From a virus, in IMG/VR virus record IMGVR_UViG_3300047381_000077, positions 1 through 23,136 of that record: 23,136 nt of DNA; one strand, 5' to 3'. Both the position numbers and the translations under genes were made by a program. Below the pieces are notes generated by a model. The model saw only the letters and a program-made list of their open reading frames with translations, was not told the origin of the DNA and did no database searches. Every line of letters starts with the position of its first letter. The first letter of the stretch is position 1. Positions 2,902-8,242 of this stretch are shown here, piece by piece.

Positions 2902-3388
2902 TCTCTAACCTTGTCATCAAGCGTTCTGCTCGATTTGTCACTTGTCGATACCATTTCGAATCACGGCCTTCAACTGCCGCGTTCACCCAATCCTCATTTT
3001 GTAAATGAAGATACATGTTCTTGAACTTACTTAGTCTTGGTCTACCTAGGTTAAACATCATGTTAACCAAGATTTGCTGTACCTCATCTGGCCAACAGTG
3101 GAACCCGTCTCCGTATAGTACAGCACATTCGTAGATTGCGACGTTGAGGTCGTGGTCGAATGCCTCGCTAACTCTTTCGGGGGAAATTTTCGTTCCGACT
3201 GAAGCGCCGTACTCGCCGTCACTTTCCTTGATGAGATGCCCAACACCGAACGTGGGATAGTTGAGATGGTCGAGGTAAATCTCATAGACGACTCCTTCGT
3301 CAATCTTTAATTGTTCGAATACTGCTTCTCTGTTCATGATCGGTTTCACTTTAGGTTTGCACCATAGTTTACGAATTAGTTCTATCAT
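2894..3388 (-). CDS. e: T4-type lysozyme (endolysin, glycoside hydrolase family 24)
   Basis: This enzyme cuts the N-acetylmuramic acid-N-acetylglucosamine bond of peptidoglycan. After a 17-residue extension the protein aligns with T4 lysozyme: LKIDEGVVYEIYLD and YPTFGVGHLI give E31, D40 and T46, the same spacing as T4 E11, D20 and T26. C-terminal matches include NMMFNLG and SKWYRQVTNRAERLM. There is no clear signal peptide, so it should need a holin for access to the wall. The ATG at 3388 overlaps the stop of the upstream single-TM gene (ATGA). An internal ATG at 3337 would match the T4 start but has no visible ribosome site. The extension is short and basic (RKLWCKPKVKP). Confidence 0.95.
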   Translation of the reverse strand: MIELIRKLWCKPKVKPIMNREAVFEQLKIDEGVVYEIYLDHLNYPTFGVGHLIKESDGEYGASVGTKISPERVSEAFDHDLNVAIYECAVLYGDGFHCWPDEVQQILVNMMFNLGRPRLSKFKNMYLHLQNEDWVNAAVEGRDSKWYRQVTNRAERLMTRLENV

Positions 3389-3579
3389 AACTTGATGGCA
3401 AGTACCACCAAGATAGCTGCCAACAAAATATTAGTTGTCAAAATTTCAATAGCAAGTATAGTATGATACCATACCCACCTTGTTTTATATGCATTTGCTA
3501 CAGTTACTTCGTCAGGATTTGGGTCTCCAACTGGGTCGGCCGACGATGGACCTGAACCCAACCATTTAAAAAAATTCAT
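3385..3579 (-). CDS. Single-TM membrane protein, candidate holin or lysis accessory
   Basis: A 64-residue protein with a soluble, Pro/Asp-rich N-terminus and one strong C-terminal hydrophobic segment at about residues 38-62 (YHTILAIEILTTNILLAAIL onward), ending in a lone Lys-Leu. AAAGG precedes the ATG. It is translationally coupled to the lysozyme by an ATGA overlap. Position and topology fit a small holin or antiholin, but no holin family is recognised and no T4 gene t homologue is seen, so the lysis role is inference. Confidence 0.7.
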   Translation of the reverse strand: MNFFKWLGSGPSSADPVGDPNPDEVTVANAYKTRWVWYHTILAIEILTTNILLAAILVVLAIKL

Positions 3580-3583
3580 ACTA

Positions 3584-3826
3584 CTAAACCTTTATTGTGC
3601 TTTGTACCCCTGCATTCTTCTTGATTGCAGTTAGTTTATTCTCCCATTCCTTTCCTGCTATTCGCATGGTTGACTTAACACCCGTCACCATTTTAGGTGC
3701 TGATGAAGGTGGAAAGTAACGCACCCATTCGGGATTGTCAATTAACCATTGGTCGTACTCAGAAATCCGGAGAGACAATTCCTTGCACTCTCCGGTTTCC
3801 TTATTCTTGAAATCATACTGTGGCAT
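3584..3826 (-). CDS. Conserved small phage protein (FmdB-like N-terminus without zinc cysteines)
   Basis: An 80-residue protein beginning MPQYDFKNKETGECKELSLR and followed by SEYDQWLIDNPEW and a basic C-terminal part. The opening strand pattern resembles FmdB-type zinc-ribbon proteins, but only one Cys remains, so metal binding is unlikely. Similar proteins occur in marine T4-like phages with no known role. The ATG at 3826 is chosen over the in-frame TTG at 3853 because it matches the usual start of this family; only a weak GGA lies upstream. The gene follows a possible 39-aa ORF in the late operon. Confidence 0.72.
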   Translation of the reverse strand: MPQYDFKNKETGECKELSLRISEYDQWLIDNPEWVRYFPPSSAPKMVTGVKSTMRIAGKEWENKLTAIKKNAGVQSTIKV

Positions 3827-3932
3827 AATATATCCATTCCAAATCTTTTTCAATCACTACGACAGGCATCTCACAAAATGCACCTGAAGAGATAATCACC
3901 CCCTTATCGAGAAAGTTGTTGAGTAGACGCAT
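3813..3932 (-). CDS. Possible 39-aa overlapping small protein
   Basis: The frame starts at ATG 3932, inside the end of the upstream 55-aa gene, and reads MRLLNNFLDKGVIISSGAFC onward to a TGA at 3813 inside the start of the next gene. An alternative GTG start at 3899 lies within AAGGGGGTG, so it has a good purine-rich stretch but poor spacing. The translation looks protein-like (beta-strand pattern VIISSGAF and MPVVVIEKDLEWIYYATV) and fills an otherwise empty gap of about 77 nt in a tightly packed operon. This is weak evidence; it could be chance. Confidence 0.4.
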   Translation of the reverse strand: MRLLNNFLDKGVIISSGAFCEMPVVVIEKDLEWIYYATV

Positions 3933-4071
3933 TTAGTATCGTATAATACTGATTAAGACTTTTCGTTTGATAATTCGAATTGCCTTGAGAATATATTGCT
4001 TGGCGTCTGGTATCGTGCACGAACTTTTGTAATTCGTTAATTTGGTTCAACTGCTTTTCTTGACTCGACAT
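3904..4071 (-). CDS. Small phage protein (55 aa)
   Basis: The frame reads MSSQEKQLNQINELQKFVHD and on to NASTQQLSR, a hydrophilic, Gln-rich, helical protein. A strong ribosome site TAAGGAGA stands eight bases before the ATG, which is the main support. It lies 42 nt downstream of the preceding late-operon gene. No domain is recognised; a coiled-coil or tail/baseplate accessory role is possible but not shown. Confidence 0.7.
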   Translation of the reverse strand: MSSQEKQLNQINELQKFVHDTRRQAIYSQGNSNYQTKSLNQYYTILNASTQQLSR

Positions 4072-4112: not shown

Positions 4113-4544
4113 TTACTCGCTTATCAGATTTGGAAATGCCTCCTGTACTAGTTTTTTGGTTATGTAACGACAAGGTGGTTTCTTTGCCACCATTTTCAGA
4201 ACGTACTCAGCATCCTCCGGATGAACGGATTCTAGAAGCTGGACGAATTGATTCTCGCGTTTAAACGCTGGGGTATTTTCACCCTTACCTCCCTTCACGA
4301 AGTTTCCAAATTGCTTGTGCTGCTTCGTTAGGGTAGAGGGTGCCGACTCCGGTCTGTTCGGAGTGAAAGGTGGGCGTCCTGCTGGAAGTAAAAATTCCAA
4401 AGAATCGTCGAAGGAACCCCGAAGGATATCTTTGAACGCCCAGTTGTCTTCATATTTTTTCAAAACATCTAATCGGGCTTCACGGGAATCTGCTTCTTTG
4501 TATTCCTCGAACACCTCAAAGACTTCTTTACGAAACGTAATCAT
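4113..4544 (-). CDS. Conserved marine T4-like phage protein of unknown function
   Basis: A 143-residue protein with an acidic helical N-terminus (EVFEEYKEADSREARLDVLK), a hydrophobic LRGSFDDSLEFLLPAGRPPF segment with a Pro-rich turn, and a C-terminal QLLESVHPEDAEYVLKMVA followed by ITKKLVQEAFPNL. I recall this arrangement from unnamed cyanophage and marine myophage proteins (tentatively DUF6433). The ATG at 4544 is one base after the upstream TAA (TAAGTAATG). It is the second gene behind the late promoter, so late expression is expected. Confidence 0.75.
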   Translation of the reverse strand: MITFRKEVFEVFEEYKEADSREARLDVLKKYEDNWAFKDILRGSFDDSLEFLLPAGRPPFTPNRPESAPSTLTKQHKQFGNFVKGGKGENTPAFKRENQFVQLLESVHPEDAEYVLKMVAKKPPCRYITKKLVQEAFPNLISE

Positions 4545-4547
4545 TAC

Positions 4548-4817
4548 TTACACCTTATCAATTTTGTAACACACATAAGTTTTTTTCATTATGATGATGT
4601 CTTCTTTGAACTGACATCTCCAAACAAGATCTCTTAATACTTGCTCATGGTTGTTTATCTTAATTCTACTTCTTCTGAGCTCGTTATCTTTCTGACTGAT
4701 TTGGAACTCTTTTATTTGTACTACCTTTATATATTCATCAATTATAACTGCTGTGCTGCCAATCCAGAGTAAAGAGCACAGCAGGGCGGTTATCGCCACT
4801 GAGTGAAAGGTACTCAT
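4548..4817 (-). CDS. Membrane-anchored coiled-coil protein, candidate inner spanin or lysis regulator
   Basis: An 89-residue protein with an N-terminal hydrophobic anchor at about residues 7-27 (SVAITALLCSLLWIGSTAVI) and a charged, helical remainder (EFQISQKDNELRRSRIKI) carrying two Cys near the end. That topology matches Rz-type inner spanins, which bridge to the outer membrane, but an embedded outer-spanin lipoprotein was not found, so the role is inference. AAGGGAGAA precedes the ATG at 4817. It is the first gene of the late unit with lysozyme. Its ribosome site lies in a strong hairpin (4811-4870) whose loop contains the late promoter. Confidence 0.72.
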   Translation of the reverse strand: MSTFHSVAITALLCSLLWIGSTAVIIDEYIKVVQIKEFQISQKDNELRRSRIKINNHEQVLRDLVWRCQFKEDIIIMKKTYVCYKIDKV

Positions 4818-4870
4818 TAGATTCTCCCTTATGTCAAGGGTATTTATAAATGGGGAGAACCCAATGAGTA
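4811..4870 (-). promoter_or_regulatory. RNA stem that would sequester the ribosome site and start codon of read-through mRNA
   Basis: On the minus strand TACTCATTGGGTTCTCCC (4853-4870) can pair along all 18 positions with GGGAGAATCTAATGAGTA (4811-4828), using two G-U wobbles. The 24-nt loop holds the late promoter TATAAATA. The 3' arm contains the ribosome site GGGAG and the ATG of the 89-aa gene. Transcripts reading through from upstream would fold and hide the start. Transcripts begun at the late promoter lack the 5' arm and stay open. T4 gene e and I-TevI use the same principle. Confidence 0.85.
4841..4848 (-). promoter_or_regulatory. T4-type late promoter TATAAATA
   Basis: An exact late -10 box on the minus strand, 24 nt before the start of the 89-aa membrane gene. 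It should drive the late operon containing lysozyme and the glycosyltransferase. It lies in the loop of the 4811-4870 inverted repeat, so initiation just downstream removes the 5' arm of that hairpin. Confidence 0.85.
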
Positions 4871-4872
4871 AA

Positions 4873-5175
4873 TTATCTTAAACTATTCCACTCTTCTGGA
4901 GTAACGTCGTTTAATCTGCCGCGTTGGTCATTTGGTAGGTTTGGTTCTGGGGGAGTGAGTTCTTCGATACAATCACCAAATGTATCAAACAACCTATTAA
5001 ATTTCATGCCATACACATGGCAGAGACCCATGAGAATATTAGCAAGGTCATCGGTATCACTGGGAGACAATGAATCATATTTCCCTTCATCGACTAATCT
5101 TAACAACAACTGGAGATCGTCCGTGATCCCCCAGCAGTTCATGATGTCTTGTTCTAGATCAAATCGATCTTTCAT
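4873..5175 (-). CDS. Conserved small acidic phage protein (unknown function)
   Basis: A 100-residue acidic protein: MKDRFDLEQDIMNCWGITDD at the N-terminus, then helical LANILMGLCHVYGMKFNRLF, an acidic DTFGDCIEEL and a Pro-rich tail. Similar small proteins are common in T4-like and other tailed phages, but I know of no function. The start overlaps the stop of the DUF932 gene (ATGA), so it is probably co-expressed with it from the sigma70 promoter at 6162-6191. Its stop lies only three bases before the 5' arm of the 4811-4870 hairpin, so this gene's mRNA is the source of read-through into the lysis operon. Confidence 0.75.
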   Translation of the reverse strand: MKDRFDLEQDIMNCWGITDDLQLLLRLVDEGKYDSLSPSDTDDLANILMGLCHVYGMKFNRLFDTFGDCIEELTPPEPNLPNDQRGRLNDVTPEEWNSLR

Positions 5176-6131
5176 GCCGCCACCGCCATTTCGACGGCAA
5201 GTTCAGCAGCTTTCTTCTTCTTGACTTGGTTTGCACCGTACCATGCAGAAGTCATTCGACCGTCGGCAGTACGACCCAACTGGTGATCAGTAAGGTAAGT
5301 CACAGAGTTGAATGCCTGCCACCATGAACCACGACCGAAGTTTGCGCCTGGTTGAGTCTCTAACAACTCGTATGCTTTCTTTGCATTAGGTGCGAGGTCT
5401 TTGTAACCACGTACTTCTGCGGCAGGTGCCTGTGAAGGGAACAGAGAGTTGTAGTACTGAATCAGAGTGTCAGCAGTGAACTGTCGCTTAGACAACAACT
5501 GTGCCATCTCTTTATACTGGTCAAACTTCTCGTGTGCAAGACCTAGGTGCTCTTTAACCATCTGTGGGTCAAACGCACGTCGGTGGTTTACTTTGATACC
5601 GTTGGTTGCAGAACCTTTTAGAGCGAGGGACAGAGTGTTCATGCAAGTCACACGAACTGGAGTGAATCGAATGTCGATCGACTTACCATACTCGTGTGGG
5701 TTAGAGAACAGAAGGTATGAATCGACTTGATCACCCTTCAGGATGTCGAACGACTCTTTGATGCGAGCCATTGCGTATACGATCTTACCGTCTTTGAGTG
5801 AACCCGCAGAGTTCATCTCCATGTCACCCGCAGAGCAGTAGTCATTGAAGAAAGTAAATGCCTCTTCATTCTGGCATGGTGACCATGCACCACCCACCTG
5901 AGTAAGTACAGAGTTGTCGGATGAACGCACAAGTGCCTCCATACCAGTGGCGATTTTCTCACCGTTGTAATCAGCGTAAGTAGGAACTTTCTCGACCGAC
6001 CAGTCGACACCAGCTTTCTGCATCATCTGTACGGGAGTTAGGTCATTGTTGACTTCGGTACCAATACCCCAAGGGCATTTACCGACAGTCGCAGAAGTTT
6101 CGATTTGTAGTACATTGTTCATGGAAGACAT
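5172..6131 (-). CDS. DUF932 / phage-plasmid-like protein (TIGR03299 type)
   Basis: A 319-residue protein with features of the DUF932 family: PWGIGTEVNNDLTPVQMMQK, then VDWSVEKVPTY, DNSVLTQVGGAWSPCQNEEA, and a middle region ending IRFTPVRVTCMNTLSLAL. The C-terminal part GRGSWWQAFNSVTYLTDHQL and MTSAWYGANQVKKKKAAELA also fits. Such proteins are frequent in phages and plasmids. Their role is unproven, though links to DNA replication or repair have been proposed. AAGGA stands nine bases before ATG 6131. A sigma70-type promoter of the shared leader class drives it. Confidence 0.88.
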   Translation of the reverse strand: MSSMNNVLQIETSATVGKCPWGIGTEVNNDLTPVQMMQKAGVDWSVEKVPTYADYNGEKIATGMEALVRSSDNSVLTQVGGAWSPCQNEEAFTFFNDYCSAGDMEMNSAGSLKDGKIVYAMARIKESFDILKGDQVDSYLLFSNPHEYGKSIDIRFTPVRVTCMNTLSLALKGSATNGIKVNHRRAFDPQMVKEHLGLAHEKFDQYKEMAQLLSKRQFTADTLIQYYNSLFPSQAPAAEVRGYKDLAPNAKKAYELLETQPGANFGRGSWWQAFNSVTYLTDHQLGRTADGRMTSAWYGANQVKKKKAAELAVEMAVAA

Positions 6132-6161: not shown

Positions 6162-6191
6162 ATTGTATCATATGTTTTGATTACTTGTCAA
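6162..6191 (-). promoter_or_regulatory. Sigma70-type promoter TTGACA-18-TACAAT with GGCTAC leader
   Basis: On the minus strand TTGACA (6186-6191) and TACAAT (6162-6167) are 18 bp apart, followed immediately by GGCTAC, the leader element shared with other promoters in this region. It lies between the 66-aa gene and the DUF932 gene. Confidence 0.88.
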
Positions 6192-6980: not shown

Positions 6981-7043
6981 AATCAAATCTCTCTTTTCAT
7001 TAATTTATGTAGCCATTATACATCTTTTGGAAACATCTGTCAA
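6978..7043 (-). repeat. 66-bp exact direct repeat, copy 1 (promoter, leader and start codon)
   Basis: Base-for-base identical to 7796-7861. The copy spans the -35 box, -10 box, leader, ribosome site and ATG of the downstream gene. The sequences on either side differ at once, so only the expression cassette is duplicated. Confidence 0.95.
7015..7043 (-). promoter_or_regulatory. Sigma70-type promoter TTGACA-17-TATAAT with GGCTAC leader
   Basis: On the minus strand TTGACA (7038-7043) and TATAAT (7015-7020) are perfect boxes 17 bp apart, followed by the conserved leader GGCTACATAAATTAAT. It drives the three-gene cluster 6980-6209. Confidence 0.93.
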
Positions 7044-7892: not shown

Positions 7893-8063
7893 TCACACCT
7901 CTCGAACCTTACAGTACGAGTCTGTGAGGCGGATTACCTCAAGTGTTGCGGTACCACCTGAGTTACTTGATGCGGGAACGTCCCGCACTACGACAGCGGT
8001 GCCCACTGCCATACCAGCACATGTAGGAAAGTTTTGTAAAACGCATTCGTAAGATAAAGTCAT
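7893..8063 (-). CDS. Small phage protein (56 aa)
   Basis: The frame reads MTLSYECVLQNFPTCAGMAV, then GTAVVVRDVPASSNSGGTAT, and ends in TDSYCKVREV. It is strand-rich with three Cys and a Gly/Ser/Thr loop; no family is recognised. AATGAGG and AGGT precede the ATG at 8063. A sigma70-type promoter with the conserved leader ends about 27 nt upstream, and this promoter is the main support for a real gene. Confidence 0.72.
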   Translation of the reverse strand: MTLSYECVLQNFPTCAGMAVGTAVVVRDVPASSNSGGTATLEVIRLTDSYCKVREV

Positions 8064-8090
8064 TAGGTAACCTCATTAATTTATGTAGCT

Positions 8091-8118
8091 ATTATACCTG
8101 TTTTTAAAATAAAGTCAA
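8091..8118 (-). promoter_or_regulatory. Sigma70-type promoter TTGACT-16-TATAAT with AGCTAC leader
   Basis: TTGACT (8113-8118) and TATAAT (8091-8096) on the minus strand, spacer 16 bp, followed by AGCTACATAAATTAAT, one base different from the cassettes at 7015 and 7833. It is divergent from the plus-strand promoter at 8184-8212. Confidence 0.88.
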
Positions 8119-8183
8119 CACTTTTCTTAGAACATTTTGGCATAAGAACTTTTTGTATATGCTAAAATAATCTAACCATGCCC

Positions 8184-8212
8184 TTTACATCTGTTTCAAA
8201 AACATGTACAAT
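8184..8212 (+). promoter_or_regulatory. Plus-strand sigma70-type promoter TTTACA-17-TACAAT with GGCTAC leader
   Basis: TTTACA (8184-8189) and TACAAT (8207-8212), spacer 17 bp, then GGCTACATAAATTAAT. Even the spacer resembles that of the minus-strand cassettes, so this is an inverted relative of the same promoter block. It drives the only plus-strand gene. Confidence 0.9.
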
Positions 8213-8242
8213 GGCTACATAAATTAATAAAGGTATCAATAT

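Follow-up and report, generated by a model that had tools for sequence, protein, structure and literature searches.

A T4-type late promoter enclosed by a hairpin over the start of a small phage membrane-protein gene, a probable RNA switch kept among relatives

Results

Organization of the locus

The window analysed here is the whole of a virus record of 23,136 bases, and all hairpin coordinates refer to its minus strand. Along this strand the order is a DUF932 gene, a small gene, the hairpin, a gene for an 89-aa protein (M89), a DUF6433 gene, a 55-aa gene, phrog_385, a 64-aa membrane-protein gene, the lysozyme gene, and a 281-aa gene. The order from the DUF932 gene to the 281-aa gene is kept in most of the loci long enough to show it. 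The features of the window that bear on this study are as follows:

7015-7043, minus strand: sigma-70-like promoter, TTGACA-17-TATAAT, 12/12 match
6162-6191, minus strand: sigma-70-like promoter, TTGACA-18-TACAAT, 11/12 match, with TG before the -10; just before the DUF932 gene and the presumed source of read-in RNA
5172-6131, minus strand: DUF932 gene (PF06067), presumed early, reading toward the hairpin
4873-5175, minus strand: 100-aa gene, with 2 nt between the end of its stop codon and the 5' arm
4853-4870, minus strand: 5' arm of the hairpin (anti-Shine-Dalgarno, anti-SD), not part of RNA begun at the late promoter
4829-4852, minus strand: hairpin loop of 24 nt, from the fold
4841-4848, minus strand: T4-type late promoter box TATAAATA, inside the loop
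4811-4828, minus strand: 3' arm of the hairpin, containing the Shine-Dalgarno (SD) GGGAGA (4823-4828) and the AUG (4815-4817) of the 89-aa ORF
4548-4817, minus strand: M89 gene, 89 aa, start predicted to be hidden on read-in RNA
4113-4544, minus strand: DUF6433 gene (PF20025), 3 nt past M89, with an SD-like AAGGTG within the end of M89; possibly coupled
3904-4071, minus strand: 55-aa gene with its own strong SD, AGGAGA, predicted open
3584-3826, minus strand: phrog_385 'transcriptional regulator', start taken as the ATG at 3826
3385-3579, minus strand: 64-aa protein with a C-terminal hydrophobic segment
2894-3388, minus strand: T4-lysozyme-type muramidase (PF00959), the sixth gene counted from M89

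Structure of the hairpin

The arms TACTCATTGGGTTCTCCC (4870-4853) and GGGAGAATCTAATGAGTA (4828-4811) form 18 consecutive pairs, two of which are G-U. A preliminary description of this DNA had given the length of the stem, its two G-U pairs and the 24-nt loop; these were correct to the base on the minus strand, the strand having been left unspecified. The exact T4-type late box that it placed in the loop was found at 4848-4841, and the SD and AUG that it considered to be covered by the stem both lie inside the 3' arm and belong to M89. A 101-nt fold had a minimum free energy of -26.9 kcal/mol, compared with -18.66 +- 3.38 for shuffled sequences (z = -2.44), and three of 200 shuffles were as good. 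When the 40 nt upstream of the box were subjected to dinucleotide shuffling, none of 2000 shuffles equalled the SD closure of the window. Late RNA was taken, following the T4 rule, to start about 6 nt downstream of TATAAATA, near position 4835. By folding, opening of the M89 SD in the window would cost about 15.4-15.8 kcal/mol on RNA reading in from upstream and 3.7 kcal/mol on late RNA.

The late box

The window has four exact copies of TATAAATA, each of them on the minus (gene) strand; 1.3 would be expected over both strands. Among annotated phages C48C1 (OQ984149, filed under Kyanoviridae) is the nearest, with 74% identity over 68% of a 3.2-kb query. Its genome has 22 copies of the box on one strand, compared with 3.6 in shuffles, and 3 on the other, compared with 2.6. 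Counts for the main and the other strand were 21/1, 25/4, 32/4, and 31/3 in the contigs of four relatives, and the pattern read backwards gave 4/1, 6/4, 7/2, and 7/1 in the same four contigs. C48C1 also encodes members of the late sigma (phrog_234), late promoter regulator/co-activator (phrog_254), and clamp (phrog_223) families, which we equate with T4 gp55, gp33, and gp45. Because of the strand bias, these late-factor families and the late box of S-PM2, given as NATAAATA in a cyanophage review (PMC2984593), we consider it very likely that TATAAATA is a real late promoter in this phage group.

The gene at 3584-3826 was considered as a possible gp33 family member and rejected; its only PHROG match was phrog_385, and the late-promoter regulator of C48C1 (phrog_254) is another gene. 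The rejection stands at the level of the PHROG family. In five relatives (L023, L026, L030, L038, and L053) TATAAATA sits immediately before the ATG of the phrog_385 gene (TGTATAAATAATGCC), and RNA from that box would have its start within the gene; the corresponding sequence of the window is TATATTATGCC.

Conservation among M89 homologues

Homologous loci were found by means of the DUF932 protein and by means of M89, and C48C1 and the window's own piece (L001) were added. An M89 match at E 1e-5 or better was present in 77 loci; several contigs were present twice, and identical leaders were merged. Six loci (L064 and L047-L051, with two distinct leaders), in which the match started after residue 1, were set aside, and 33 distinct leaders were analysed. 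The box was located 28-34 nt before the AUG in 33 of the 35 distinct leaders, which are all of the 33 analysed. The exact-box hairpin was absent from two homologue lineages, L064 and L047-L051, whose M89 proteins are 32-34% identical to that of the window over the alignment; the other 31 aligned homologues have 40-81% identity to it. A tblastn search of 50,697 phage records gave an M89 relative in one, namely C48C1.

The 33 leaders were folded both as read-in RNA and as late RNA starting 6 nt past the box. Opening of the SD cost 3.4-16.1 kcal/mol (median 8.8) on the read-in RNA and 0.06-3.3 kcal/mol (median 1.0) on the late RNA, and was costlier on the read-in RNA in all 33. With the start assumed anywhere between +2 and +9, the late-RNA cost was still low, with medians of 0.75-2.3. 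Folding supports the claim that read-in RNA would hide the start of M89 and that RNA from the late box would leave it accessible.

Variation of the arms without compensation in homologous phages had been named beforehand as an observation that would speak against a switch. The consensus of a MAFFT column alignment (25 of the 33 leaders) contained 8 pairs, three with double changes, and had a covariation term of -0.41; the pairing registers seem to slide among leaders. Because this consensus fold is weak, permutation tests were used. For eight cluster representatives, the summed arm pairing was -162.1 for native and -129.1 for permuted arms, with 6 of 20,000 permutations as good, and the SD closure was 86.8 for native and 68.2 for permuted arms, with 86 of 20,000 as good. 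Leader by leader, the native 5' arm ranked best in just four of the eight representatives in a swap test on SD closure, and the native partner was best by arm pairing against dissimilar 3' arms in just 8 of the 33 leaders. Five or fewer of 100 upstream shuffles matched the native closure in just 15 of the 33, and for six (L034, L046, L041, L091, L093, and L025) 22-41 of 100 did so. The arms co-vary on the whole, with these six leaders as a reservation. Several pair types occurred at one and the same stem position (in one example C-G 12, U-A 10, and A-U 5), counts that are biased because they were taken from each leader's own fold. The SD core positions were paired in 31, 32, 25, and 21 of the 33 leaders.

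Specificity and T4 controls

An SD opening of at least 5 together with a difference of at least 3 was found in 29 of 32 M89 contexts from the fetched relatives, compared with 3 of 34 other late-box contexts. With values of at least 6 and 4, M89 was the sole context to pass among 13 in the near-identical 96.9-kb contig G001, where contexts came from pieces around all 22 boxes of the contig; in C48C1 two of 17 passed, one of them M89. At the looser threshold (5 and 3), three of 17 contexts passed in C48C1 and two of 13 in G001; the counts for both were made by hand. A hairpin of this kind is thus missing from most of the other late promoters tested in this group.

The same calculation was applied to T4 as a control. 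Read-in and late SD opening were 11.6/0.3 for I-TevII, 14.5/3.6 for e, 12.5/0.5 for I-TevI, and 8.7/1.5 for 49, the last two genes being recovered by the best near-match to the box (one mismatch each). In the near-match scan segB was less marked (9.4/5.2). Five of 22 T4 contexts passed the thresholds of 6 and 4 by hand count: I-TevII, e, and 51, 26, and 4 of divergent pairs. The published case soc was missed (2.9/2.8), and T4 mobE and the defective I-TevIII likewise did not stand out in the near-match calculation. The principle had been ascribed beforehand to T4 e and I-TevI, with its occurrence here on an unrelated membrane protein, and both T4 cases were recovered.

Upstream genes and read-in RNA

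Of 44 distinct regions preceding DUF932, 32 have a sigma-70 match of at least 10/12 close to the gene (hand count). Among the hairpin-bearing loci, 22 of 31 upstream regions have such a match before DUF932 and nine have none (hand count). Between 6131 and 4870 of the window there is a single weak minus-strand terminator-like match, at 5131-5112 inside the 100-aa gene. Judging from these signals, read-in from the upstream promoters across the hairpin is plausible, and we infer that DUF932 and the neighbouring upstream genes are early.

Downstream genes

The hairpin had been proposed to keep the lysis genes silent early and perhaps to act on the whole coupled operon, and neither proposal was supported. 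M89 has no lysis annotation, and the lysozyme gene lies five genes downstream of it, with a start about 1.4 kb downstream of the hairpin gene in the window; in C48C1 the lysozyme gene is 11.4 kb downstream of M89, beyond large intervening genes. On read-in RNA the SDs of the next four genes were predicted to be open, with costs of 2.1 (DUF6433), 3.4 (55-aa gene), 0.6 (phrog_385), and 3.9 (64-aa gene). When the region from SD to AUG was considered, the costs on this RNA were 19.3 for M89, 2.9 for DUF6433, 7.3 for the 55-aa gene, 4.1 for phrog_385, and 5.3 for the 64-aa gene. Because these next start sites are predicted to be open, the expected targets of the hairpin are M89 and at most DUF6433; lysozyme would be affected only by way of coupling or polarity. 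The lysozyme gene overlaps the preceding gene; it lacks a good SD and its start region is structured (12.5 kcal/mol from SD to AUG), so that little lysozyme may be made early for a reason other than the hairpin.

The M89 protein

M89 has a hydrophobic N-terminal segment, and its AlphaFold2 model (mean pLDDT 86.2, pTM 0.45) predicts a helix from residue 2 to 69 followed by a small hairpin that carries the conserved Cys68 and Cys83. Pfam, PHROGs, and Foldseek gave no name for M89 above noise; against viral models no Foldseek match reached E 0.001, the best being 3.8. Of 34 homologues, 21 matched phrog_10423, a family with no known function (best E 0.00054), and one matched phrog_9841, 'Rz-like spanin' (E 0.011). 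An Rz-like i-spanin would combine an N-terminal membrane segment with a periplasmic coiled coil and would have an outer-membrane lipoprotein as partner. In a simple screen of the 23-kb window for such a partner, no ORF of 35-160 aa with a lipobox passed. The predicted shape of M89 agrees with a spanin-like role, but no other test does.

In a relative, about 11 kb downstream of M89, a late box precedes a lipoprotein-like gene (MLRDTLAKIIIGFTVLLLVSCEPSP...; L225 1-285, G001 about 7950-8234). The 95 residues scanned had no PHROG match, and the gene product is a possible outer-membrane lysis partner.

Discussion

The element at M89 is probably an RNA switch that acts in cis, is under selection, and forms part of a late promoter. 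The computed features behind this reading are the hairpin, the position of the box, the conservation of both, the overall co-variation of the arms, their specificity, and the likeness to T4. RNA from the sigma-70 promoters upstream of DUF932 would carry both arms and fold, and the folded read-in RNA would keep 30S subunits from the SD and AUG of M89. Late in infection, the phage late sigma factor would start RNA about 6 nt past TATAAATA; this RNA would be missing the 5' arm, its SD would be open, and M89 would be translated. The main effect would be that M89, and perhaps also the closely following DUF6433 protein, is not made early. In this scheme we infer that read-in RNA exists, where late RNA starts, that translation is blocked, and why the gene is kept silent.

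The main rival, and a live one although we regard it as unlikely, is that M89 is coupled to the upstream stop codon: a ribosome stopping beside the 5' arm would open the hairpin, and M89 would be made early in step with the upstream gene. In 29 of the 33 leaders 4-15 nt separate that stop codon from the anti-SD, a distance at which a ribosome terminating there could shield some of the arm; in the other four the distance is 20-33 nt. In the hairpin-less L064, the first ATG of M89 (5387) overlaps the upstream stop codon (5388-5390). In the window, however, the anti-SD core begins 15 nt past the stop codon, which is the edge of the ribosome footprint. Coupling also leaves unexplained that all 33 leaders have the late box within the hairpin and that RNA started at the box is predicted to be open.

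A stable stem beside a promoter can shield a 5' end or halt transcription that comes from upstream, and the inverted repeat could accordingly be a transcript-processing, mRNA-end, or termination element in which hiding of the SD is incidental. To this we give little credence: no terminator-like U run follows the stem on the minus strand, the scan giving just a 5-pair match on the other strand, and it is the pairing of the SD that the lineages keep, as the core positions listed above indicate. Still less credible is an origin in chance or geometry, by which A/T-rich boxes and purine-rich SDs yield palindromes, as between divergent late genes with facing SDs. The divergent T4 pairs 51/26 and 53/4 do score in the same scan, C/U-rich upstream DNA alone closes the SD somewhat, and 11 of the 23 strong contexts among the pattern-selected matches listed (see below) have an opposite-strand frame of at least 50 aa starting upstream. 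At M89, however, a same-strand frame of at least 65 aa ends upstream of the arm in all 33 leaders, whereas an opposite-strand frame of at least 50 aa within 90 nt upstream of the box was found in 3 of 33, starting from GTG or TTG and in no case from ATG. Divergent-gene geometry is thus an unlikely cause of the M89 hairpin. Nor is the hairpin a chance palindrome, given that upstream shuffles never reached the closure of the window and that native arms fit better than permuted ones.

Two papers describe hairpins on early RNA that hide the ribosome-binding site of T4 e, soc, 49, I-TevI, I-TevII, I-TevIII, and segB and of Aeh1 mobE (PMC3014915, PMC2988022). The closest likeness to the M89 element is that of T4 gene e. 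According to the former paper, the longer early RNA of e has SD and AUG in a helix, the late promoter or promoters lie between the arms, and late RNA is without the 5' strand (PMC3014915); at M89 folding predicts the same of SD and AUG. The computed SD openings of e and the window are nearly equal (14.5/3.6 and about 15.4/3.7), and in the window a lysozyme gene lies within the same cluster. The two differ in that the hairpin here is on M89, which has no named family, and not on the lysozyme gene, and in that the phage belongs to another group, whose nearest named member is C48C1; here, moreover, the element is known from computation on sequence. The same source includes syn9, S-PM2, PSSM2, and PSSM4 among phages without an apparent gene e (PMC3014915). 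T4 I-TevI, I-TevII, and segB and Aeh1 mobE resemble M89 in having, as these papers describe, a late box and a hairpin over the ribosome-binding site on early or middle polycistronic RNA (PMC2988022, PMC3014915). However, these hairpins serve homing endonucleases, whereas M89 is a phage protein found in the same neighbourhood in most of the relatives found. T4 soc and 49 share with M89 a late-gene ribosome-binding site hidden on early RNA (PMC3014915), but are different genes. Among titles and abstracts in the open literature, none was found on an element at M89 or in this phage group; subscription papers were outside this scope. The view that the element would work by a mechanism of the T4 gene e type, at a new gene and kept in many relatives, is well supported by the computations above.

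The textbook T4 device would thereby be extended to a distant phage group and an unrelated gene. The 33 distinct leaders, with arms co-varying on the whole, provide evolutionary evidence of selection on a T4-type switch, and the timing of M89 becomes testable. The findings also suggest that the combination of hairpin and late box could be used to search phage metagenomes for late genes situated behind early ones.

A pattern scan of viral contigs covered at least 120 stretches chosen for CTCC and GGAG around a box. Among the matches listed (at least 120 stretches) there were 107 contexts, 23 of them strong (19 of 61 fitting the pattern and 4 of 46 others), a count to be read as a lead and not as a frequency because the contigs were selected by that pattern. 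By hand count, the 23 strong contexts among the matches listed comprised 11 with a divergent frame upstream, 7 with a same-strand frame only, and 5 with neither. A second family of late-promoter hairpins was seen at a tail-fibre-assembly gene (phrog_3304/1084; L099 3694-4047, corresponding to C48C1 153094, and L172 6187-6528, with a stem of about 16 pairs in L172). Other late-box hairpins lie over the starts of genes for a head maturation protease (L180 5400-6095), an HNH endonuclease (L145 4139-4762), and, by reading, a candidate tail sheath protein (L197, box 1915). A hairpin at a spanin-like gene (L199) was set aside; it faces a divergent gene. The examples that lie behind a same-strand gene, beyond M89, are the tail-fibre-assembly gene (C48C1 and L172), the L180 protease, and the L197 candidate tail sheath. 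Tentatively, hairpins at late promoters may have evolved repeatedly in the T4 superfamily of phages and may serve there as a general insulator wherever a late gene sits behind early genes.

Two further late boxes were noted. At 1130-1195 of the window, the late box of a carbamoyltransferase-like gene is directly behind an intrinsic-terminator-like hairpin (GGGGGACTTCGGTCCCCCTTTTTTTT), and in L233 a late box lies, by reading, just upstream of a candidate tRNA-Ala gene.
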